A DNA stretch of 47,080 nt, taken from Synergistaceae bacterium. Its GTDB lineage: Bacteria; Synergistota; Synergistia; Synergistales; Aminobacteriaceae. The notes under the pieces are model-generated. The model had not been told where the DNA came from. It was given only the letters and a program-made list of their open reading frames with translations, and made no database searches. How positions within the stretch are numbered: the first letter of the stretch is position 1; each line of letters starts with the position of its first letter. Both the position numbers and the translations under genes were made by a program. The stretch is taken from the NCBI GenBank assembly GCA_017444345.1, contig JAFSWW010000055.1, positions 1-47,080 on the forward strand. The letters run 5' to 3'. This document shows positions 17 through 47,080 of the stretch, one piece after another.

Positions 17-59
17 TTCCGCCGCCGACGGGGTGGGCGGGTGGGAGGAGGCGGCGGAA
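17..59. repeat. GC-rich hairpin with G-quadruplex motif in its loop (copy 1)
   Basis: Perfect 10-bp inverted arms (TTCCGCCGCC at 17-26, GGCGGCGGAA at 50-59) enclose four G-runs separated by single bases (30-33, 35-37, 39-41, 43-45). This matches the textbook pattern for a stable parallel G-quadruplex on the plus strand and a C-rich strand on the minus. The right arm directly abuts the ftsK stop codon (60-62). Neither direction has a T-tract right after the hairpin, so it is not a normal intrinsic terminator. The 15-mer GGGCGGGTGGGAGGA at 35-49 recurs exactly at 27490-27504, and a related half-element follows the last gene of the window. Confidence 0.8.
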
Positions 60-2219
60 CTAAAAATTTAGCAGGTCAGGAAATCCTACGTTATTGCTTA
101 AGTACTCTACAAAATCAGAAATTTTCTCGTCTTCTATAAATGGAGCTTGCAATCTTATCGGCAAAGGATAGCCCGAACTCCTGAATAACATATCGCCTTT
201 ACTTGTGAGTCTCTCTGCTCCTGAAGAGTCAATTATATTTTTTGAGTCTTCAAGTGTCTGAAGCGTAAAAGCTGCCCTTGCCGGAATATTTGATTTAATC
301 AGGCTCGTTATTACATCATTTGAAGGAGTCTGAGTCGCTAAAATCATATAAATTCCTGAAGCTCCGGCCTTCTGTGCTAATCTTGCTATTAAACTTTCTG
401 TCTCATTTCCGGCCGAATACATTAAATCAGCTAGTTCGTTTATTATAATCACTATACGGGGCAATTTCTCATTTTTGCGATTGTAGGCTGATAAATTTCT
501 TACTTTAGCGGCTGAAAATTTTTCCGTGCGTTCCTGCATTTCGTGTAAAGCCCAGTTAAGAGCCTTTAAAGCCGTCTTCACGTCATAAACAGGAGTCGCT
601 ATTAAATGTGAAAGATTTTCATAAATCGCAAAATCTGTCTGTCTTGTGTCAATCATTAATAATTTAAGCTCATCGGGACGGCAATTTGCGCACATTCCGA
701 GAATGCAGGAATTAATGAATACACTTTTGCCCGCTCCTGAACTCCCGGCGATTAAAATATGAGGCATTGACTCGAGTCCCTGTATAAAAATTTCTCCGTC
801 GATTTTACAGCCAAGCGGCATAATTAATTTTGCTCGTGAATTAATGAACTCTTCAGAATCTATAATATTTCTCAATGGAATAATTTTACGTTCGAGCGCA
901 GGAACTTCAACTCCAGCATAATGAGTCCCCCATATAGGAGCCTCGATTCTTACCGGCATTACAGCGAGGGACATGGCCAAGTCGTCAGCAAGTTCAAGAA
1001 TGCGGCTCACTTTTGTGCCGGGGGCGAGTTCTAATTGATATTGAGTAACTGAAGCACCGTTTATAATTTTTGCGACACTGGCATTGACTCCGAAATTCTT
1101 TAATGATGAAATTATTTGCTTGCCTTGTCTCTCTGAAGATTTTATTAAATCCTTGTCGAACTCAATAACTTGTTTAGCTCCGTAAATATCAATAGGAGGC
1201 GGAAAATTTGCTATATCTTCATGCTGTGATTGCTGGGAGTCGTTGACTTGTTCGGGCTTGTTTGCTTGTAACTCGTCAATAGCATCAATAGAAGGAAGGG
1301 GGCGGCGAAATTTTTTCATACGTTTAGCGGGCTCTCTTTTCTCAGGAGCTGATATTTTGCTTTCGTCAAGTGAAGTAATAAGAGTGCTGAACATATTAAT
1401 TGCGGCTTTCATGGGATCTTTTTCGGGTTCTGGCTGCTGTGTATCATCCTGCTTTAAATTAGGGTCGGGGATTCGCATTGACTCAATTTCTGCCTTAGCA
1501 TTAAGAGCCGACAATAACGGCATTGGATCAGAAAATTGTATAGCATCGTCATAAACTCTGAATTTAGGGGCGGGAATCTTCTGCGGAAATAAAATATTTT
1601 CGGGCTTGTCTTCTGTATATGGATCTCCGCTATAATTTTCGCGCGGTTTTCGTCTTGATCTGGGTCTAGTTTTAGATTCAGAGTCTAAATCAGAATCAGA
1701 GTCCGAGTCTGAATCTGAATCAGAAAAATTCATAACTGGTATAGAAATTTTCAGAATCCTAGAGCCGAACAGATAAGCCGACAAAATAAATGACGCTATA
1801 ACGAGTAAAAGTGTTATAAACGTTCCTATATTCAAGACAAAAAATTTAGCGAGTCCGCTGCCTAGTCCCCCCGGTTGAAATAGAGTCCAGTCAGAATCCC
1901 AGCCTGTTTCACGCAAAAATCCCAGCATAAACGAGAACGAAATATAAAGCTGAAGAGTGCCTAAAACTTGACGAGGTACACGAGGGACTCGAAATCTAAA
2001 TAATTTAGCGGCACATAAATATATCACGAAAAATAACGGGACAATGAACGCGCCTCCCCATGTTGAACGTAAATATCTGCCCCATTCGCGCCCGCCGTCG
2101 CCTGTAAATGAACTGTCGAATAATGCCAATATACAATAAAAGCAAAATAATATGATTCCAAATAATAATAATTCTCGTAAATCGCCTTTATTCTTGTTAG
2201 TCTTTCTTCTTCGCGGCAA
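60..2219 (-). CDS. ftsK: FtsK/SpoIIIE-type DNA translocase, divergent, no gamma domain
   Basis: This is a membrane-anchored ATPase of the FtsK family, which pumps chromosomal DNA through the division septum. Three to four hydrophobic segments lie within residues 17-155, followed by a low-complexity linker (a Ser-Asp run at about 166-180, then a charged stretch to about 340) and the motor domain (345-700). Walker A is AGSSGAGKS at 491-499. Walker B reads IIINELADL, with Asn594 in place of the usual Asp; Glu595 is kept. The protein stops just after the motor core at residue 719, so the C-terminal winged-helix gamma domain that reads KOPS and contacts XerD is absent. The usual DPK after the second strand is also altered (IDTRQTD). 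The start is TTG with a strong AGGAGG upstream. It is the last gene of the pilus/nuclease operon. It may be a specialised translocase rather than the cell's main FtsK, but this is inference. Confidence 0.85.
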   Translation of the reverse strand: MPRRRKTNKNKGDLRELLLFGIILFCFYCILALFDSSFTGDGGREWGRYLRSTWGGAFIVPLFFVIYLCAAKLFRFRVPRVPRQVLGTLQLYISFSFMLGFLRETGWDSDWTLFQPGGLGSGLAKFFVLNIGTFITLLLVIASFILSAYLFGSRILKISIPVMNFSDSDSDSDSDSDLDSESKTRPRSRRKPRENYSGDPYTEDKPENILFPQKIPAPKFRVYDDAIQFSDPMPLLSALNAKAEIESMRIPDPNLKQDDTQQPEPEKDPMKAAINMFSTLITSLDESKISAPEKREPAKRMKKFRRPLPSIDAIDELQANKPEQVNDSQQSQHEDIANFPPPIDIYGAKQVIEFDKDLIKSSERQGKQIISSLKNFGVNASVAKIINGASVTQYQLELAPGTKVSRILELADDLAMSLAVMPVRIEAPIWGTHYAGVEVPALERKIIPLRNIIDSEEFINSRAKLIMPLGCKIDGEIFIQGLESMPHILIAGSSGAGKSVFINSCILGMCANCRPDELKLLMIDTRQTDFAIYENLSHLIATPVYDVKTALKALNWALHEMQERTEKFSAAKVRNLSAYNRKNEKLPRIVIIINELADLMYSAGNETESLIARLAQKAGASGIYMILATQTPSNDVITSLIKSNIPARAAFTLQTLEDSKNIIDSSGAERLTSKGDMLFRSSGYPLPIRLQAPFIEDEKISDFVEYLSNNVGFPDLLNF
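1675..1721. repeat. GANTC hexamer array inside ftsK
   Basis: GANTC sites begin at 1675, 1681, 1693, 1699, 1705, 1711 and 1717, an exact 6-nt period with one unit (1687) mutated. On the coding strand this gives the alternating Ser-Asp run of the FtsK linker. Synonymous codons vary between units, so it is an old or selected array rather than a fresh slippage product. Confidence 0.85.
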
Positions 2220-10041: not shown

Positions 10042-10094
10042 AAAATTTTTATTGCACGTCATAAATAAACACGTAAAGATTCACAAAAATTTTT
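10042..10094. repeat. Direct repeat upstream of rsmH, copy 1
   Basis: An approximately 52-bp unit with core ATTGCACGTCATAAATAAAC followed by ACGTAAAGATTCAC, flanked on both sides by A-run/T-run blocks. The second copy starts 89 bp further on and differs at about five positions. The unit contains short palindromic pieces but no obvious open frame. Confidence 0.75.
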
Positions 10095-10130
10095 AACTGG
10101 CTTGCGAATAATTAATAACGGGAATGCTCG

Positions 10131-10182
10131 AAAATTTTTATTGCACATCATAAATAAACGCGCAAAGATTCACGAAAAATTT
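10131..10182. repeat. Direct repeat upstream of rsmH, copy 2
   Basis: Same unit as copy 1, with core ATTGCACATCATAAATAAAC then GCGCAAAGATTCAC. It ends about 110 bp before the candidate rsmH promoter. It may be a regulator-binding repeat or a duplicated segment. Confidence 0.75.
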
Positions 10183-10294
10183 TCACGATAATTTTTTGCA
10201 ACATAAGAAAATTTTTTAGCTCTATGAGTTATTGCTATTACTTGAATTAAATCACATTCTTGTAGCTGTAAATGTAGCTGTAAAACTTGCACTC

Positions 10295-10323
10295 TTTCAC
10301 AAAAATTTTGCTGCTTATATAAT
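10295..10323 (+). promoter_or_regulatory. Candidate promoter of the rsmH-mraY cluster
   Basis: TTTCAC (10295-10300), a 17-bp spacer and a perfect TATAAT (10318-10323). Transcription would start near 10330, leaving a leader of about 16 nt that contains just the AAGGAG ribosome-binding site of rsmH. Confidence 0.55.
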
Positions 10324-10345
10324 ATCAAAAAAGGAGAAATTTTTT

Positions 10346-11233
10346 ATGTATCATGAGCCAGTAATGTTAAATGAAGTTATAGAATTAATACGCACTCACT
10401 CAAATAATAAATCAAACTTGCGAATCCTTGACGGGACACTTGGACTCGGCGGTTATTCTGAGGCACTGTTAAAAAATTTTAGTAATCCTTATATTCTCGG
10501 AATTGACAGGGACGAGTCAGCTATAAATTTTTCACGCGAGAGACTCAAGGATTTTAACAATTTCGAGGCACTTCACGCAAATTTCGGGGATCTTGACTCA
10601 ATAATAAAAAATTTTGATCCGTTCGATGTATTTGTCTTTGATTTAGGAGTGTCGAACATGCAAATTTCTTCACCTGAACGCGGCTTCTCGTTCAACATTG
10701 ACGGCCCTCTTGATATGCGAATGAATCCGGACGGCGACTCATTGACTGCACGGGAGATTTTGCGGGACTACGACTCTAAGACTCTTGCAAAAATTTTCTG
10801 GGACTACGGAGAAGAGAGATTTTCACGTCAAATAGCTTCAGCCATAAAACGCACTAAATCGCCGATTAATACTACATTTGAACTCGTGAATCTGATTCGC
10901 TCGACATTGCCGCAGCCCATTCAACGAAAAATGGGAACTCATCCCGCACGCAGAATCTTTCAGGCTCTGAGAATTTACATAAATAACGAGTCCGGAGAAC
11001 TTGAAAACTTGCTGAAATCTTTACGCAAAATAAATAATGACGCAATTATAATATTTGTCTCGTATCATTCACTTGAAGACAGGTTAATCAAGAAAAATTT
11101 TAGACAATGGCAAATTGATAATCACGGGAAGATTTTGACTCGGCATCCTTTGACACCTTCAGAAAATGAGATCGAATTAAATTATAAATCCCGCAGTGCA
11201 AAATTAAGGGCATTTTGTATTATTTCAAACTAG
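10346..11233 (+). CDS. rsmH: 16S rRNA (cytosine(1402)-N(4))-methyltransferase RsmH
   Basis: RsmH (MraW) methylates N4 of C1402 in 16S rRNA and is usually the first or second gene of the division/cell-wall cluster. The SAM-binding block LDGTLGLGGYSEALL, the family signature DLGVSNMQIS...PERGFSF with LDMRM, and the C-terminal FVSYHSLEDRLIKKNF and KSRSAKLRAF blocks are all present. An upstream ATG would add 38 residues, but the protein should start at MYHEPVML, which has AAGGAG eight bases before it and matches the family's N-terminus. This gives 295 aa, a normal length. The next gene begins 67 nt downstream. Confidence 0.95.
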   Translation: MYHEPVMLNEVIELIRTHSNNKSNLRILDGTLGLGGYSEALLKNFSNPYILGIDRDESAINFSRERLKDFNNFEALHANFGDLDSIIKNFDPFDVFVFDLGVSNMQISSPERGFSFNIDGPLDMRMNPDGDSLTAREILRDYDSKTLAKIFWDYGEERFSRQIASAIKRTKSPINTTFELVNLIRSTLPQPIQRKMGTHPARRIFQALRIYINNESGELENLLKSLRKINNDAIIIFVSYHSLEDRLIKKNFRQWQIDNHGKILTRHPLTPSENEIELNYKSRSAKLRAFCIISN

Positions 11234-17302: not shown

Positions 17303-18994
17303 ATGTTACTTATGACCCCCCCCCCCCGTAAAATAACTGAAATTTTTAGGAGATATTTTTTCATAGCAATAATAAAAAAGTTTTTGCTTCTATGTTTGAT
17401 TATCTTGCTGGGAGCTTTTCCTGCGTGGAGTCAGACTTATACTGTCAATAATATAAATGGACTCACCAACACGCTGAGTAGTGCAAATGATGGAGATATA
17501 ATTATCCTTGCTTCAGGTGATTATGATTTAGACAGCACACTCACAATCAATAAATCAATCACTCTTAGGGGCAATACTTCAAGCGACACAATAATACAGC
17601 GTTCGAGCAGTGCAACCAGCAAATTTAGAAATATAAATATATCAGGAAGTGCTGTTATACTTCAAAACTTGACAATTCAGAATGCTAGTTCTAATGCTGA
17701 CGGCGGTGGAATTTATTATAATGTGAGTAATGGTACTCTCAGTATTGATAACTGCATTATAACCAACAATGCTGTCGGTAGTAGCTACTCCGGCGGCGGA
17801 ATTTATAGCGGCGGCATTGTAACTATCACGAATTCCACTATAACAGACAACAATGCAAACAACGGCGGCGGCGGGATTTTTAACGAAAGCACGGCAACTA
17901 TCACGAACTGCACTATTACAGAAAATACGGCAAACAACGACGGCCAAGACATTTATACTAGTACTAATATCTCAGCACTAAATACGCTAATATGGAATTC
18001 TGTATTGAATGAGAATGATGTTATATATGGTACTGTCAATCTAACAAATTGCGCAACGCCCAGCGGAATCGGCACTAATCCCGTTACATTAACTTCATGG
18101 TCTAATCCTGTATCATCAAGCGTAGAAGTAAACGGCGTGACTCATACAGTTTTTACGATTGAGAATAACACGGAATTACAAGGACTCGTGGGCAAGGGCA
18201 TACAAAGCGGCGACCAGACTCCGGCAACAGACCAGATCGGAACTCTCCGCGCAAGTAAGCCGACAATTGGAGCTATTGAGGGAGCTAGTATATCTGTTAT
18301 TACAATTTCATGCGATGTCGATACACTGGAAATTACAAAAGGTTATTCACGAGATATTACTCTTAGTGCGGACTTGGAAGATGATTATAAAGAATGGCCA
18401 ATCAGCTGGAGTATTTCTCCTGATGTCAGCGGCATTACAATATCAAATGACGGCGTTTTGACAGTGGGCGAAAGTGTCGCAGTGGGAGTTTACAGCGTTG
18501 ATATTATTGCGGCTATAACGAGTGGGGACGAGTCTTATTCGGACAATAAAACAATCACAGTGAGTGTATATCCGTATCCTGTTATAGTAATTTCGCAGGC
18601 CTCAGCGTCAGGAACAGCAGGGAGCGCATTTACTCAAACATTAACAGCAAATATAACAGTCAACAGCGCAGACTATACAGTAACGCCCGTATGGAGTTAT
18701 TCAGGAAATTTGCCGGAGGGAATTAGACTCAGCAATGATAAATTTGTAGGAACTCCGACACAAAGCGGCGATTATGAAATTACTATAAAAGTTTCTGCGG
18801 ACGTTACTACAATTGACAGCCATGATATTATTATTTCAAGTGAGAAAACTCTCACGCTAAATATATCAGCTGCAACGGTTACTATTTCAGGGACTCCGGC
18901 ACAGTCGGGGAATATAAATTTTTCTGCACATTCAGTGCAACGCCTAACACTCTTACTTACACATGGAGCGCGTCAGGACTTCCCAGAGAGTTAA
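17303..18994 (+). CDS. Surface beta-helix/Ig-like protein, 5' part of a frameshifted gene
   Basis: The first part of a very large secreted protein. After MLLMTPPPRK comes a basic segment and a signal peptide (about residues 25-43, ending AWSQ). Next are polymorphic-outer-membrane-protein-like repeats (about 60-230) with GGGIYSGG, GGGGIFNES and TITNCTIT turns of a right-handed beta-helix. From about 310 on there are Ig-like domains with the GTPTQSGDYEITIKVS block of putative Ig (He_PIG) repeats. The frame breaks at about 18926-18931; the last residues here are out-of-frame noise up to 18994. The codons for Pro come from a run of 12 C (17316-17327). With 11 or 13 C the protein would stop within a few codons, so expression should be switchable. 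Confidence 0.85.
   Translation: MLLMTPPPRKITEIFRRYFFIAIIKKFLLLCLIILLGAFPAWSQTYTVNNINGLTNTLSSANDGDIIILASGDYDLDSTLTINKSITLRGNTSSDTIIQRSSSATSKFRNINISGSAVILQNLTIQNASSNADGGGIYYNVSNGTLSIDNCIITNNAVGSSYSGGGIYSGGIVTITNSTITDNNANNGGGGIFNESTATITNCTITENTANNDGQDIYTSTNISALNTLIWNSVLNENDVIYGTVNLTNCATPSGIGTNPVTLTSWSNPVSSSVEVNGVTHTVFTIENNTELQGLVGKGIQSGDQTPATDQIGTLRASKPTIGAIEGASISVITISCDVDTLEITKGYSRDITLSADLEDDYKEWPISWSISPDVSGITISNDGVLTVGESVAVGVYSVDIIAAITSGDESYSDNKTITVSVYPYPVIVISQASASGTAGSAFTQTLTANITVNSADYTVTPVWSYSGNLPEGIRLSNDKFVGTPTQSGDYEITIKVSADVTTIDSHDIIISSEKTLTLNISAATVTISGTPAQSGNINFSAHSVQRLTLLLTHGARQDFPES
17316..17327 (+). repeat. Poly-C tract (12 C) in codons 5-9 of the surface-protein gene
   Basis: Twelve C in a row in an AT-rich region, immediately after ATG-TTA-CTT-ATG-A. 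With 12 C the frame is open; with 11 C it reads to GTA-AAA-TAA, and with 13 C to CCG-TAA. This is the layout of a phase-variable contingency locus. Confidence 0.85.
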
Positions 18995-26138: not shown

Positions 26139-27461
26139 TTGCAGAATAAATCACTAGCTAAAGAAGTAATCTCGAATATTATTCCCGCAATAGTAGTCGA
26201 GATAATGATATTAATTTATAATCTTGCTGACACATTTTTTATAGCTCAGACAAATGACCCCTTGCAAATTGCGGCAGTCTCTATAGCCGGGCCGGTTTTC
26301 TTTGTGTTGATAGCTGCGGGAATAATTTTCATGGCCGGTTCAATGTCATGTATTTCTCGTGCACTGGGAGCAGGCGGCAAGGAACGGGCAAATAATATCG
26401 TGTCTTTCTGTGTATGGGCGGGGATTTTGACGGGGATAATTTTAGCGGTTATATTTATGTGCTTTATCGATAAAATTTTGCGCTTAATCGGAGCGAGTCC
26501 CGACACATTTAATTTTGCCTATAATTATTTGTCGATAGTAATAGCTTCAGGCCCGTTTGTAATATTCAGCATGACATGCGGGGGAATAATGCGCGCCGAG
26601 AATCACCCTTCAGCAGCAATGATCGGGCAGATTTTCGGAAATATGTTAAATGTAATTCTCGATCCCATAATGATTTTATATTTAGGCTGGGGAATAACAG
26701 GAGCAGCGATCGCAACTACTACGAGCATTATAATCGGCACGTTATATTATCTGGGATATTTTGTGTTAGGGCGTTCGTCGTTGAGAGTTCACGTTAAAAA
26801 TTTTCGCGCAAAAAACGGCATTGCTTCAGGAGTGTTTTATATAGGGATTCCGGCGTGTCTTGACCCGTTATTAATGAGTTTCTCGCAAATGACTCTAAGT
26901 TCCATGATGTCGGCATATGGAGATATGGCACTTGCTGCGACTGGTATAGCAATGAGAATAAATCAGATTGCGGGCTTGATTGCGATGGGATCAGGCCAAG
27001 GGGTTCAGCCTTTACTGGGCTATTGCGTGGGAGCTGAGATGTGGCAGAAATATAATGACATGTTAAAATTTGCGCTCAAGTTCACAATTATAATGAGTCT
27101 AATATTGACTGTAGGCTGCTTTGTGTTTACGCCTGAACTTGTAAGCATATTCTTGAATGAGCCTCAAGCATTTAATTATTCAGTAGATTTTGTGAGAATT
27201 TTACTCACTACAGTATTAGCATTCGGGATATTCTTTATATTTATTAACGCGCTGCAGGCAATGGGAGCGGGGCGGGCCTCGTTTATATTGAGCATTTGCA
27301 GACAGGCTTTAATATATGTTCCTATGATGATTATATTTAATTATTTCTGGGGAGCATACGGACTCGTGTGGGCATTGCCGGTTACTGAGATAATTTCACT
27401 TGCGCAGACTTATATAATTTACGGCAGAATTATATTTGATCCTAGAAAGCTAAATAAATAG
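26139..27461 (+). CDS. MATE-family efflux transporter
   Basis: A 440-aa integral membrane protein with 12 predicted helices in two related halves. Typical MATE sequence is found in the first helices (LIYNLADTFFIAQ), the AGSMSCISRALGAGG loop, the matching loop of the second half (GSGQGVQPLLGYCVGAE) and the final MGAGRASF helix. Such transporters export drugs or metabolites with Na+ or H+. The substrate cannot be read from sequence. The start is TTG with AAAGGA about 10 nt upstream, 38 nt after rsmD, so it is probably in the same transcript. It splits the common rsmD-coaD pair. Its stop is followed directly by the second G-rich element. Confidence 0.9.
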   Translation: MQNKSLAKEVISNIIPAIVVEIMILIYNLADTFFIAQTNDPLQIAAVSIAGPVFFVLIAAGIIFMAGSMSCISRALGAGGKERANNIVSFCVWAGILTGIILAVIFMCFIDKILRLIGASPDTFNFAYNYLSIVIASGPFVIFSMTCGGIMRAENHPSAAMIGQIFGNMLNVILDPIMILYLGWGITGAAIATTTSIIIGTLYYLGYFVLGRSSLRVHVKNFRAKNGIASGVFYIGIPACLDPLLMSFSQMTLSSMMSAYGDMALAATGIAMRINQIAGLIAMGSGQGVQPLLGYCVGAEMWQKYNDMLKFALKFTIIMSLILTVGCFVFTPELVSIFLNEPQAFNYSVDFVRILLTTVLAFGIFFIFINALQAMGAGRASFILSICRQALIYVPMMIIFNYFWGAYGLVWALPVTEIISLAQTYIIYGRIIFDPRKLNK

Positions 27462-27468
27462 CTCGTGC

Positions 27469-27524
27469 GGGGGAATCTCGTACTAGGGCGGGCGGGTGGG
27501 AGGAATCAGGCACGCGGCGGGGAA
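27469..27524. repeat. G-rich element with G-quadruplex motif (copy 2)
   Basis: Starting eight bases after the MATE stop, this stretch has a G5 run and then GGG-C-GGG-C-GGG-T-GGG at 27486-27500, four G-runs with single-base loops. The 15-mer at 27490-27504 is identical to 35-49. Flanking arms are weak (CGTGC at 27464-27468 with GCACG about 45 nt later). Relative to the upstream gene, this copy is in the opposite orientation to copies 1 and 3. Confidence 0.75.
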
Positions 27525-27573
27525 TAAACTTTTATGATAATTTGGGCGAAAAATTTTCAAGTAATCAAGCTCG

Positions 27574-41687: not shown

Positions 41688-44600
41688 ATGTTAAATAAGT
41701 TTATGGCTATGAGAATGAAAATATTTATTCTTGTCATGATTCTTTGTTCGTTTGCTTGTCCTGTCTTGGCCGGTGAACTGAAAGCAATATCGGGCGACGA
41801 AAAAATTTCACTGCTTGAGCCTGTACAAGTTAATTTACCTGTTCAGATTGAAAACGTGAAATCTTCAGCAGAGTCAGATCACAAGCCGGGCGAATTTATT
41901 GTAATGTTCAGGGAGAATATTTTAGAGGGCAGCGGAGACTCTCATGACTCACGAGTTAAAAATTTTGTTCAAGCACTAGGAGTCGAAATTATAAGCACTT
42001 ATCCCGCATTATCTAAACAGGCCGGACAAGTTTTTGCGCTAGTTCATGCGGATTCTAAATCAGAAAGTGAAATGCTCGAAGAATTACAGGCAAATCCAAA
42101 TGTCTTAGGTGTAAGTCTGAATTATAAGACTCATGCTTTAACGACTCCGAACGATAAATATTATAGCCAGCTCTGGGGAATGAGCGCAATTAAAGCCGAT
42201 AAATTATGGGATCAAGGCTACACAGGAGCAAGCGATATTTATGTTGCAGTCCTTGACTCGGGAATTTCGTACAATCATGAAGATTTAGCGGCAAATTTTG
42301 AGTCTTCAGGTTTCAGCAAAAATTTTAGTTCAACATCAAATTATTCTGACGGGGACGGACACGGGACTCACGTATCAGGCACAATAGCAGGCGTGGGCAA
42401 TAATTCAATCGGAGTCGCCGGTGTAAACTGGAAGGCAAAATTAATCGCTGTAAAAGTTCTTGACAATAACGGAAACGGTTATTTCAGCTGGATTCTTAAC
42501 GGGTTAAATTATCTTTGTGAGCTTCTCGACAATCACCCGGAAATAAATCTAGCGTCAATAAATTTATCACTGGGCGGCTATATGAGCACTTCTCCGCAGG
42601 AAATGAAAAGCTCTAATAATCCGACTTGGGTAGCTTTTAAGGCAATCAGCGATAAGAATAAAGCTGTAATTTGTGTAGCTGCAGGAAATGAAAAGATTCA
42701 GGTCGGCGCAAATACTTCTAAAGGTTATTGTTATCCTGCGTCATTAATTGACATTGATAATATGATAGTTGTAGCTGCGTCTGATAATAATTCGAGTTAT
42801 TCGCGCTCGTCATTCAGCAATTACAGCACTCAATATGTAGACGTTGCAGCACCGGGCAGGGGGATTTATAGCTCACTCCTGAATAATTCATATGGAAATC
42901 TCAGCGGGACTTCAATGGCTACACCTCATGTTACAGGAGCGGCGGCCTTGCTGCGTTCAATCTTCCCGAATACTACAGCGAGCGAGATAAAATCTGCAAT
43001 TATTAACGGTGCTAATAAGAATTACGCGACAAGTTACACAAAATACGGCTTTCTTGATGTAAAATCCGCGTTTGATATTCTCTCAAAAAATAATACACCT
43101 TCAAGTCTTGCGCCGGTTATTGAGACTGATTCACTAGATGACGCTACAATCGATAATTATTACAGCGCGACTCTTTCTGCGTCAGGAGCAAAATATATTA
43201 CATGGTCTCTTGAAAGCAGCTATAAAGATTTGCCCGATGGTATGAACTTTTCTTCAATGGGTATAATTTCAGGGACTCCGACAACAGCAGGGACTTATAC
43301 TTTTACGGTAAAAGCTAGTAATTTATACGGGAGCGCAAAGAAAACATTAACTCTTACTGTTAAGGATATTGACAAAGCTCCTATTATTCAAAATAGCGAA
43401 TTACCGGACGGATCTATTCAGGAATTCTACAGCGCGAGTCTTTATGCTTCAGGAACGAGTCCTATTACATGGAAAATTTCAAGCGGGAGTCTTCCAACTG
43501 GGTTAAATCTTGACTCATCGACGGGAATAATCAGCGGTGCACCGTCAAAAGCAGGTACGTTTGAATTCGCAGTTAAAGCAAGCAATAATACAGGCTCAGA
43601 CACAAAAAATTATTCACTCACAATAGAGGGAATTGCGCCGCAAATTTTGACTCTTATGTCGCTAAGAAATGCAGTACTCGGACAATATTACAGCGAAAAA
43701 CTTGAGGCAATAGGAACAGGCCCAGTTACATGGAATCTTTACAGCGGGAGTCTTCCGAACGGGTTAAAATTAAACTCTTCAACCGGAGTAATCAGCGGCA
43801 CTCCTAGAGAATCAAGCGATTCAAGCTACAATTTTGTTATTACCGCGTCAAATGCAGAAGGCTATGACTATGTAGAATTCTCTATGTATGTCGATGATAT
43901 GAGCACTAAATCAGGAATAAATATAAAAACGGAGACTCTGCCCTATGTGTTCTATAATCAGCCCTATTCTGCAAAACTCGAAGCAACGGGAACTAAGCCC
44001 ATAACATGGTCAATCATAGAAGGCTCTTTACCGGATGGAATAACTTTAGAGTCAGACGGCACACTCACGGGTTTAGGCTCATACGGTGAGGGCTTCACGG
44101 AAATTAAAGTCCAAGCGTCAAACTCTAAAGGCTCAATCACGAAAAATTTAACAGTGAGATATACAGCTTTGCAGACCCCTCAGGAGTTCGTGCGCGAGTC
44201 TCTTCCCGACGGCATAAAGGGCAGCGAATACAATCAATATTTATACATGATAGGTTACAGCCCATTTTATTTTGACGTGAAAGAAGGCACATTACCGCCC
44301 GGATTAATTTTGAACAGTGAAGGCTACATAACAGGGACTCCGACAAAATCAGGAAGTTATACATTTACAATTCGCGGGACTTGTCAATATAGCGGCTGGG
44401 GACTCTATGATATCAAGACATTCACGATCACTATACGAGATAACGAAAAAAAGCCCTCAATAACTAGCAAAAATTTACCCGACGGGACTAACGGACTAAT
44501 TTATAATACCGGGCTTAAATATTCGGGCACTCATGATATTAGCTGGACTTGTGATTATGACTCGCTGCCGCCGGGACTTTATCTGGCTGGAGACGGCGAT

Positions 44601-47048
44601 TTGATTTCAGGAATTCCCACGCAGGCAGGCACTTATACATTCAATATTTACGCGGAAAATTCGGCCGGTTCTGCTTCTCAATTATTAACTATAAAAATTA
44701 ACGATGTCCCGAATTATGCGAATCACGAAATTTTGACGGATTCAGATTTAGGCACTTATTCACAAGGCAGCTATTATGCTTTCACTTTTTCTGCTGACGA
44801 GGGCGCGACATGGACTCATACAGACGGAAATATACCCGACGGAATGACTTTCTATAAATATGGGATTCTTTCAGGACGGCCGGCTGAAACTGGAGAATTT
44901 AATTTTACTGTGAGTGCCTTATTTGACGATGATATAAGCGTATCAAAAAATTTCAAGATCGTAATCTCAAGTGCTGCTCCAGTTATAGAGTCTAACTCAA
45001 AACTTGATCCCGGCACAGACGGCGAGTCATATAATTATGAGTTAAAGGCATCGGGCGCGGAGTCTTTCACGTGGGAATTGAAATCCGGTTCATTGCCTGA
45101 AGGTTTAGAGCTTGACTCAACTGGTATAATTTCAGGAATTCCGACACAAACGGGCAAATTTAATTTTATAATTCAAGTAAATAACTCTTATGGGAGCGAC
45201 TCGCAAAATTTCACACTCACAATAAAAGCAGCTGCACCAGTCATAACAAGCGAGACTCTTTCAGACGGCAAAATCGGCGAGTATTATAATTCTGAATTAC
45301 AGGCTACAGGCTCGACTCCTTTAAAGTGGTCAATCAGCGGACAATTTCCTAAGGGCTTAAAACTCAACGCAAGCACGGGGCAAATTACAGGAACTCCGAC
45401 AAAAGCAGGGACATTTACATTTACTGCAAAAGTTAAGAACTCAGGAGGCAATGACTCAAAGTCTTTCACTATAGAAATTTCTTTACCTGATAACGCCGTC
45501 CCAGTCATAAACGATGACTCGTTAATAAATCCTGAAGCAGGCAAATATTACTCTCATCAATTTACAGCGGCCGGAATAAATCCTATCACATGGACGAAAA
45601 TAGCGGGGCAAATTCCTTCAGGTTTGAAGCTCAATAAATCGGGCTTGCTTGCCGGGACTCCTAAACAGTCAGGCGAATTTGATTTTACTATCAAAGCAGC
45701 TAACAAATACGGCAATGATACGAAATCTTATACTTTGAGAATAACGCCCGTTATAATCACAAGCAAATTAAACTCTGGAATATTCAATAAATCATATAGT
45801 GCCGCTTTGAGTGTTCAGGGGTCAAAGTCTAATATAATTTGGCAAGTCGTCTCGGGTTCATTGCCTGAAGGGTTAAAGCTCAACGAGTCAACCGGCAAAA
45901 TTTCAGGGAAGCCGACAAGTTCAGGCGAATATAATTTTACAGTCCGTGCTGAAGTCGAGAATGTAACGCCCGCCCTTTACGATGAGCAGTCATACACGAT
46001 AAAGATAACGGGAATAGCTCCTAAAATTAATACGTCGAGTCTCAAGAAAGGCACGATTAATAAAGATTATTCAGCAGCAATCAAGACTACAGGATCTACA
46101 CCCATGAATCTGGAAATCAGCGGACTCCCTGAAGGACTCTCACTGAACTATGACTCTGAAACAGGACAAGGCACAATTACAGGAACTCCGACTGAATGCG
46201 GAAATTTCAGCGTGAAATTAACGGCCTCAAACGAGACTAATACGACATCAAGAACGTTCAATCTTGTAATAAATAATATAAAGCCGTCATTTACTTCTTT
46301 GAGCTTACCTGATGCAATTATCGGGCAGTCTTACTCGGCAAATATTCAGGCTACAGGAGCAGCAAAGGGCGATAATTTGAGCTTTACTCTTTCATGGTCG
46401 GGCAAAAATATTGGCGGATTCACTCTTGATAATTCTGACGCGTCAATAACAGGGACTCCCGCTGAGACTTCAGGAAAGAATTTCAACGCGCCGGGGACTT
46501 ATAGAGTCAAAGTCATTGCTAAGAATTCAGCCGGGACAAAATCAAAAACTTTCAAGATAAAATTAAACGCTGCGCAAATTACAGAAGTCGAGAGTGCGCA
46601 AAAAGTTTTATCAGAGTCAGAGTTTGAGTCTGAGTCAGAGTCATTAAGCTCAATTTTTCCAGATAATCAAGAAAGTAACGCGCAAAAATTATCATTTCTC
46701 GAAAATTTTGCAGGAAACAATAAAGACTTTACCGCAGGAGATCTTGCAGAAATTGACGGAAAGAAATACATTATTGCGGCTGTTATTGCGCCTGTTAAAT
46801 CACTAGAATCAGGACAATTTGATTTTAACGTCGAATTAAGCGAGAAAGCTCCGACGGGGGCAAAATTAACCTGGCTTGCATGTCCTTATGACAGCGAGGA
46901 CTCACAGGATGACGAGATAGCTGACTTTTACGACGAGACAGGCAAAGAAATTTTTACAGTTCCGGAGAGTCATTCAATAACAGTGTCTCCGTGGCTGCGT
47001 AAATGTGTGATTTATGAGCCTTTGATATTGGCCGAGATTATGGAATAA
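41688..47048 (+). CDS. Giant secreted subtilisin-like protease with Ig-like repeats
   Basis: A protein of 1786 aa. Signal peptide at about 8-28 (ending VLA); propeptide with an inhibitor_I9-like region (about 66-145). The S8 catalytic domain (about 155-465) has Asp190 in VAVLDSGI, His225 in GDGHGTHVSG, Asn334 in AAGNE and Ser409 in GTSMATPHV, so it should be active. After it come about 13 putative-Ig (He_PIG) repeats of about 85-100 residues, each with a GxISGTPTxxGxYxFTVxAxN-like core. A Ser-Glu linker (from a GANTC array) and a C-terminal beta domain follow. It lacks the Synergist sorting tail seen at 21609. It probably degrades extracellular protein, in keeping with the amino-acid lifestyle of the group. 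Confidence 0.92.
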   Translation: MLNKFMAMRMKIFILVMILCSFACPVLAGELKAISGDEKISLLEPVQVNLPVQIENVKSSAESDHKPGEFIVMFRENILEGSGDSHDSRVKNFVQALGVEIISTYPALSKQAGQVFALVHADSKSESEMLEELQANPNVLGVSLNYKTHALTTPNDKYYSQLWGMSAIKADKLWDQGYTGASDIYVAVLDSGISYNHEDLAANFESSGFSKNFSSTSNYSDGDGHGTHVSGTIAGVGNNSIGVAGVNWKAKLIAVKVLDNNGNGYFSWILNGLNYLCELLDNHPEINLASINLSLGGYMSTSPQEMKSSNNPTWVAFKAISDKNKAVICVAAGNEKIQVGANTSKGYCYPASLIDIDNMIVVAASDNNSSYSRSSFSNYSTQYVDVAAPGRGIYSSLLNNSYGNLSGTSMATPHVTGAAALLRSIFPNTTASEIKSAIINGANKNYATSYTKYGFLDVKSAFDILSKNNTPSSLAPVIETDSLDDATIDNYYSATLSASGAKYITWSLESSYKDLPDGMNFSSMGIISGTPTTAGTYTFTVKASNLYGSAKKTLTLTVKDIDKAPIIQNSELPDGSIQEFYSASLYASGTSPITWKISSGSLPTGLNLDSSTGIISGAPSKAGTFEFAVKASNNTGSDTKNYSLTIEGIAPQILTLMSLRNAVLGQYYSEKLEAIGTGPVTWNLYSGSLPNGLKLNSSTGVISGTPRESSDSSYNFVITASNAEGYDYVEFSMYVDDMSTKSGINIKTETLPYVFYNQPYSAKLEATGTKPITWSIIEGSLPDGITLESDGTLTGLGSYGEGFTEIKVQASNSKGSITKNLTVRYTALQTPQEFVRESLPDGIKGSEYNQYLYMIGYSPFYFDVKEGTLPPGLILNSEGYITGTPTKSGSYTFTIRGTCQYSGWGLYDIKTFTITIRDNEKKPSITSKNLPDGTNGLIYNTGLKYSGTHDISWTCDYDSLPPGLYLAGDGDLISGIPTQAGTYTFNIYAENSAGSASQLLTIKINDVPNYANHEILTDSDLGTYSQGSYYAFTFSADEGATWTHTDGNIPDGMTFYKYGILSGRPAETGEFNFTVSALFDDDISVSKNFKIVISSAAPVIESNSKLDPGTDGESYNYELKASGAESFTWELKSGSLPEGLELDSTGIISGIPTQTGKFNFIIQVNNSYGSDSQNFTLTIKAAAPVITSETLSDGKIGEYYNSELQATGSTPLKWSISGQFPKGLKLNASTGQITGTPTKAGTFTFTAKVKNSGGNDSKSFTIEISLPDNAVPVINDDSLINPEAGKYYSHQFTAAGINPITWTKIAGQIPSGLKLNKSGLLAGTPKQSGEFDFTIKAANKYGNDTKSYTLRITPVIITSKLNSGIFNKSYSAALSVQGSKSNIIWQVVSGSLPEGLKLNESTGKISGKPTSSGEYNFTVRAEVENVTPALYDEQSYTIKITGIAPKINTSSLKKGTINKDYSAAIKTTGSTPMNLEISGLPEGLSLNYDSETGQGTITGTPTECGNFSVKLTASNETNTTSRTFNLVINNIKPSFTSLSLPDAIIGQSYSANIQATGAAKGDNLSFTLSWSGKNIGGFTLDNSDASITGTPAETSGKNFNAPGTYRVKVIAKNSAGTKSKTFKIKLNAAQITEVESAQKVLSESEFESESESLSSIFPDNQESNAQKLSFLENFAGNNKDFTAGDLAEIDGKKYIIAAVIAPVKSLESGQFDFNVELSEKAPTGAKLTWLACPYDSEDSQDDEIADFYDETGKEIFTVPESHSITVSPWLRKCVIYEPLILAEIME
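46614..46642. repeat. GANTC hexamer array inside the protease gene
   Basis: GAGTC sites at 46614, 46626, 46632 and 46638 (46620 is GAGTT) keep a 6-nt phase and encode an alternating Ser-Glu linker before the last domain. Confidence 0.8.
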
Positions 47049-47059
47049 TTTGCAATTAT

Positions 47060-47080
47060 TTCCGCCGACTCCCCCACCCG
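47060..47080. repeat. GC-rich hairpin/C-run element (copy 3, cut by window end)
   Basis: TTCCGCCG (47060-47067), identical to the left arm of copy 1, is followed by C5-A-C3 and then the window ends. It starts 11 bases after the protease stop codon. Read on the sense strand, the layout matches copy 1 behind ftsK: arm first, then C-runs. Confidence 0.65.

Follow-up and report, generated by a model that had tools for sequence, protein, structure and literature searches.

Hairpins capped by a predicted G-quadruplex look like an undescribed, structure-conserved family of small dispersed repeats in rumen Synergistaceae

The REP and BIME sequences of enterobacteria and pseudomonads, which occur with RAYT transposases, are short, multi-copy and mostly extragenic imperfect palindromes that lie near gene 3' ends, have conserved stem mismatches, and carry a constant GTAG/GGAG head beside the palindrome. 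Kaplan is said to have reported in 2016 a putative switch between quadruplex, hairpin and duplex. The TMECO/BoxC repeats of E. coli are intergenic C-rich/G-rich palindromic repeats with quadruplex potential that are dispersed in the genome; they require three homopurine/homopyrimidine blocks, form a triplex by NMR, and are more often found upstream of ORFs (PMC4666352). The GGGAATC and GGGGA(C/T)T heptamers of Xanthomonas and Nostoc are dispersed intergenic quadruplex-forming repeats, tandem and variable in number, that lie between convergent ORFs in 16% (Xanthomonas) and 11% (Nostoc) of cases (PMC4692102). The palindromic elements of Rickettsia are ~150 bp long, have a conserved peptide, and lie in frame inside unrelated protein genes (PMC10969869).

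The element considered here occupies positions 17-59 of the window, by which we mean the whole stretch of 47,080 nt that was analysed. The window is the entire contig C55 of a MAG (G000; 2.33 Mb, 141 contigs, 96% complete), with position 17 near the contig edge, and has a G+C content of 39.3%. A search with the Der protein of a relative led to rumen Synergistaceae / Fretibacterium-like MAGs, which gives the lineage. Its relevant features are as follows.

17..26, + strand: left arm TTCCGCCGCC (from the sequence)
30..45, G-strand on +, antisense to ftsK: quadruplex core GGGGTGGGCGGGTGGG (from the sequence; quadruplex and stem in the predicted fold)
50..59, + strand: right arm GGCGGCGGAA (from the sequence)
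60..2219, - strand: ftsK (ORF call; its stop at 60-62 adjoins the right arm)
26139..27461, + strand: MatE-family gene upstream of the D-type copy (ORF call, Pfam)
27464..27527, + strand: D-type relative, direct repeats around a core at 27486-27500 (from the sequence; the orthologous site in G016 is strongly diverged)
47060..47080, - strand: probable third copy, cut short where the contig ends (its C-strand is the plus strand; its G-strand is antisense to ORF 41688-47048)

As the initial annotation had read them, the arms at 17-26 and 50-59 are a perfect 10-bp inverted repeat around four G-runs; between them lie, 5' to 3', GAC, GGGG T GGG C GGG T GGG (30-45) and AGGA. The right arm stands directly beside the ftsK stop (TAG on the minus strand, 60-62), also as first described. 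By sequence, the core qualifies as a parallel G-quadruplex, having four G-runs that are each three or more bases long and joined by short loops. Neither strand has a T-run behind the hairpin. The ftsK product matched FtsK_SpoIIIE and FtsK_alpha in Pfam, which gave no gamma domain there, and the core does not match KOPS, the FtsK-directing motif GGGNAGGG; KOPS was set aside on these two grounds. A conserved element behind ftsK was looked for and not found: among 30 ftsK loci (this one included, and with those of G016 and G014 ending before any downstream sequence) only the window copy has the element, and the other loci are followed by different sequence, in many cases by what looks like an ordinary terminator or by the next gene. 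The arms of the window copy, again with four G-runs, are also found at C70, C74 and C86, and contig C70 terminates in the identical 59 nt behind a solute-binding-protein gene (PF00496). The left neighbor is missing in the window, but as the end of C70 lies behind that gene, the window site is probably convergent.

Within the window, GGGCGGGTGGGAGGA with up to 3 mismatches gave 3 matches, with 0.25 expected. The core of the second copy is 24 nt past the stop of the MATE gene, between tandem genes, and is accompanied by the direct repeats GCGGGGGAAT and GCGGCGGGGAAT without a simple enclosing hairpin; the third copy lies 11 nt past the stop of ORF 41688-47048. The idea that these two match the first in kind and in placement is not supported as proposed, the second being D-type between tandem genes and the third truncated. 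More broadly, the proposed family is real in being multi-copy, and the notion of one kind in one placement gives way to at least three architectures with differing placements.

Several other repeats were seen in the window. In the stretch at about 17303-17330, the start codon of ORF 17303-18994 (+) is closely followed by a 12-C run, read as 12 G on the minus strand, which may be phase-variable; in G031, G003 and G017, runs of at least 15 G are frequent. A 56-nt direct repeat pair (10042-10097 and 10131-10186), 89% alike, lies in the intergenic region before ORF 10232-11233. The first 1000 residues of the long ORF 41688-47048 (+) contain an S8 peptidase domain along with six Ig-like stretches (He_PIG), which match the direct repeats found in the DNA.

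In the 2.33-Mb MAG, the 15-mer GGGCGGGTGGGAGGA occurs 11 times exactly and the reversed control not at all (56 against 29 with up to 2 mismatches), which speaks against chance occurrence, an outcome that the initial annotation had named as fatal to its proposal. The least biased test against chance is a search with A-type arms only (CCGCCG-N12-40-CGGCGG, loop unspecified) in G000, G016 and G017. There were 17 sites in G000, 15 of which have four G3 runs in the loop, the others being a broken run at C32 and an unrelated stretch at C46 that is present in the sister genome G016 too; 20 of the 21 sites in G017 have four runs and one is unrelated; no A-type hairpin was recovered from G016 by this search; and the reversed control gave 0 in all three genomes. 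With B-type arms (TTCTACT-N16-45-AGTAGAA), all 13 sites in G000 have four runs (reversed control, 1 per strand), and the one site in G016 has a broken fourth run.

Copies called A- or B-type by rule are present in 9 of the 43 genomes of the rumen Synergistaceae genus, a count based on fetched matches that are incomplete for some genomes. Six of 61 relatives, every one of them a member of the same genus, contain the exact 15-nt core, which is absent from the 24 genomes of other genera; a loose four-run pattern matched in 26 of the 43 genus genomes, many of these matches being poly-G runs. On a rough ftsK tree of 30 genomes, which has no support values and an unreliable G014 branch, most carriers are grouped in one part of the genus. 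Rfam gave no match in the window at gathering score. Phage or plasmid origin was rejected, there being no match in phages or plasmids and 0 and 1 matches in viral contigs; the sole match (L331) is a G+C-rich stretch in which no enclosing hairpin was seen. No description of this family was found in the open-licence PubMed Central literature; the hairpins seem to be a new family of small repeats, scattered over the genome and conserved in structure.

To describe the architectures, we used 166 distinct copies from 14 genomes (184 before duplicate removal), which are those fetched and not all that exist; poly-G, overlapping and duplicate places were dropped before counting, and G017 contributes 31 copies against 96 loose-pattern matches that include poly-G and overlapping ones. 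Genes were called with a home-made codon-usage caller trained on the window. Type A, as at 17-59, comprises 73 copies in which a GC-rich stem directly encloses the quadruplex (rule: stem beside the core, energy at or below -17; the rule also catches at least one copy, L005, that is D-type by eye). In the 27 type B copies an outer stem holds an inner hairpin as well as the quadruplex, as in TATTCTACT-CTGCTAC-GAA-GTAGCAG-GGTGGGCGGGTGGG-AGTAGAATA. Among the remaining 66 are D copies like that at 27464-27527, which carry direct repeats such as GCGGGGAATA. In other species the core recurs on unrelated arms (TATTTACC in G033, CTCGCGCCCTC in G014, ACCTATGC in G024, TAGCCGCGCTC in G026 and ACCGCGACTTTTC in G028). 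In three G014 copies (L220, L223 and L226, two of them inside called ORFs) C-run/G-run/G-run blocks come after the quadruplex core, an arrangement that could fold as an intrastrand triplex. Another type of repeat was seen on the G-strand near position ~1501 of L106 (G061), L110 (G005), L114 (G022) and L116 (G027): GGGCGGGTGGGCGGG or similar, then a hairpin with a variable stem and the near-constant loop gaaggcctgacga.

The arms differ between species and between copies yet remain paired, with changes on both sides of the pairs. Among the 7 B copies of G033, all 112 of 112 cells are paired, 5 of 16 pairs have changed on both sides, and there are 16 double-change cells against 6.8 in shuffles, with no slid version comparable; among the 10 B copies of G000 and G016, 4 of 16 pairs have changed on both sides (5 double-change cells against 1.0). 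A copies fold with a median of -22.6 with their own arms and of -12.3 when arms are swapped between copies; 18.7% of the swapped versions reach -17, as do 5 of 3,000 random window positions. The A-copy stem is interrupted in 51 of 73 cases, with a GA-type first internal loop in 40 (exactly GA/GA in 31), and the tandem GA/GA mismatch often adjoins the G4. Tandem G.A pairs are stabilizing, and the complement would hold pyrimidine mismatches, which suggests that the G-strand is probably the folded strand. When quadruplex energies were included, 73 of 73 A copies and 24 of 27 B copies were predicted to fold with the quadruplex inside a stem, a prediction made with RNA parameters and not a proof for DNA. 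The number of G-runs differs between close relatives (G008 has three where G062 has four), and a strict quadruplex constraint across species is therefore unsupported.

Our preferred reading, held with moderate confidence, is that 17-59 is a REP-like, non-autonomous, dispersed palindromic repeat that is capped by a quadruplex, has spread as units, is kept at 3' ends and is a probable barrier there. Once single-stranded, the G-strand would form a stem with a parallel, three-tier G-quadruplex as its cap. Discrete units of ~33-45 nt would spread by means of a hypothetical mobilizing enzyme, and copies would persist mainly just behind stops, above all between convergent genes, where they may do least harm. 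There they would probably stand in the way of RNA polymerase or of 3' exonucleases. Obstacles to read-through or exonucleases may be a quadruplex on the DNA strand from which the abutting gene is transcribed, an RNA quadruplex or a C-rich RNA hairpin. Rho is encoded in the genome and could act at the C-rich loop. (G3T)4 repeats fold and are unstable in E. coli (PMC10530614), which would fit barrier action and rapid change alike.

Signs of copying and of decay come from copies inside genes and from comparisons of sites. Six of the 73 A copies lie within called ORFs, and there are in-frame copies in der, dnaX and yedF (genes identified by family match). In G062, dnaX and yedF (the latter a YedF match below the curated cut-off) have in common one hairpin of ~40 nt, in the same frame and with different flanks, which points to copying as a small unit, in line with the miniature unit that was first suggested; in yedF of G014, a hairpin with different arms is found at the matching place. 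The der copy of G024 is in a linker that is much shorter in 29 relatives; 44 other loci were scanned, and those beyond the 29 lacked a match to the search motif. The repeat units are about 33-45 nt long. In the dpp operon the left arm has been lost in G000 and kept in G016, and the presence of repeats is patchy within the genus, with G000, G017, G062 and G024 rich in the element and G009 and G020 free of it. No clean empty site was found in G016, where recognizable copies are few and contig ends many, and true absence is therefore inseparable from failed assembly. No mobilizing enzyme was found: Y1_Tnp (PF01797) had 0 matches in the 96%-complete genome, with control genomes positive, and no target duplication was evident by eye at the copies. 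A bolder version of the preferred reading, which we regard as rather unlikely, is that of a class of short mobile element with a constant quadruplex head and a free stem, copied from the G-strand as ssDNA by an enzyme that reads the quadruplex and GA/GA, and with copies since domesticated to insulate 3' ends; a stem at liberty to change would account for the same head on unrelated arms across species.

A bias to 3' ends, the initial annotation's own test, was found for the hairpin type: 45 of the 67 A copies outside ORFs have, within 60 nt, the stop of a gene on their antisense side (G-strand antisense to that gene), usually 14-28 nt away and most commonly 22; a sense-side stop is within 60 nt in 23 of 67. 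Of the 48 A copies with both neighbors called, 23 lie between convergent genes and 5 between divergent ones, while in tandem settings the G-strand is antisense at 16 and sense at 4 (convergent control pairs, 4 of 76 at the same loci and 3 of 37 in the window); the orientation bias of the tandem copies is modest (16 against 4, p 0.012, uncorrected). B copies are tandem with the G-strand sense in 13 of the 18 with both neighbors called. An ordinary intrinsic terminator, already doubted at the outset, was rejected as the rule, with at least 5 T in the 8 nt past the hairpin in 3 of 64 copies for the G-strand and in 14 of 64 for the C-strand, and no such stretch at the window copy; in those 14, the T-rich sequence that follows the C-strand hairpin may end transcription of the abutting gene. 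Among the antisense-side genes, 18 of 45 have a run of T5 or longer no more than 14 nt from the stop, against 1 of 37 other gene ends, and the repeat unit may thus include that run.

The convergent excess and tight spacing to stops, together with the T5+ runs in 18 of 45 abutting genes (1 of 37 controls) and an encoded Rho, would also be expected of an element that only serves its host, a two-way transcription barrier between convergent genes that is selected and without mobility of its own. We consider this unlikely, as we do its more detailed form with Rho assisting through a C-rich RNA loop on one strand and an RNA quadruplex acting on the other, given the in-frame copies in der, dnaX and yedF, an identical unit in two unrelated genes, 5 of 48 copies in divergent positions, none behind ftsK of relatives, decay in place, and T-runs behind the hairpin only as exceptions.

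Two G024 copies (L092 and L087) share the inner arms ACCTATGC/GCATAGGT and have outer flanks that differ yet are complementary (cgccg/cggcg and aagttc/gaactt), as if units had entered, or created, longer palindromes. Such a pattern, like the instability of (G3T)4 in E. coli (PMC10530614), would also suit a selfish or mutational product in which quadruplex-stalled replication and template switching make and perfect palindromes at G-rich seeds, with placement reflecting only tolerance. Alone, this distinctly improbable process leaves unexplained one core over many loci, the identical dnaX/yedF unit, the GA/GA step, and the strand and spacing bias.

Nine of the 16 element-like arms-only sites in G000 are within ~200 nt of a contig end, and hairpin repeats probably break short-read assemblies. 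The contig-end sites are on C2, C35, C40, C55, C70, C74, C84, C86 and C141. An assembly artefact or chance G-rich sequence, which the position of the finding and of these nine sites at contig ends might suggest, is very improbable, since reversed-pattern controls gave 0, internal copies exist in several independent MAGs, and repeats themselves cause contig ends in short-read assembly.

If the preferred reading of a spreading, quadruplex-capped repeat is true, these genomes provide a natural replicated set of quadruplex-duplex hairpins, dozens per genome, whose arms show compensatory changes and whose position and strand are defined with respect to gene ends, and the use, as opposed to the mere tolerance, of G-quadruplexes at bacterial transcript ends becomes directly testable. 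The known small-repeat families would gain one in which a four-stranded fold is the part conserved, and one that probably accounts for some contig breaks in rumen Synergistaceae MAGs.

When the family is compared with known systems, it is REP-like in being a short, dispersed, mostly extragenic palindrome in many copies. Unlike in REP/BIME, the loop is a quadruplex and the arms change freely while the core stays; there is by eye no constant GTAG/GGAG tetranucleotide in the flanks listed, and no RAYT (Y1) transposase in the genome. With both Y1_Tnp and the tetranucleotide head missing, membership in REP/RAYT was rejected. Dispersed intergenic C-rich/G-rich palindromes with quadruplex potential resemble TMECO/BoxC and the switch reportedly described by Kaplan in 2016. 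In contrast to TMECO, the arms here are of mixed sequence and copies lie at 3' ends, and the mixed-sequence arms of the B, G014, G024, G026 and G028 copies led us to reject a TMECO-like intrastrand triplex as the general case. With the Xanthomonas and Nostoc heptamers the family shares dispersal between genes and quadruplex-forming sequence; unlike those tandem repeats, the cores here are single and inside covarying hairpins. In-frame copies in protein genes are shared with the Rickettsia palindromic elements, whereas units of ~33-45 nt, mostly outside ORFs and with a quadruplex loop, differ from them. Each nearest known system thus fails in at least one tested defining feature, and the family is a member of none; we call it a family of dispersed bacterial palindromic repeats distinct from REP/BIME, TMECO/BoxC, the heptamers and the RPEs.
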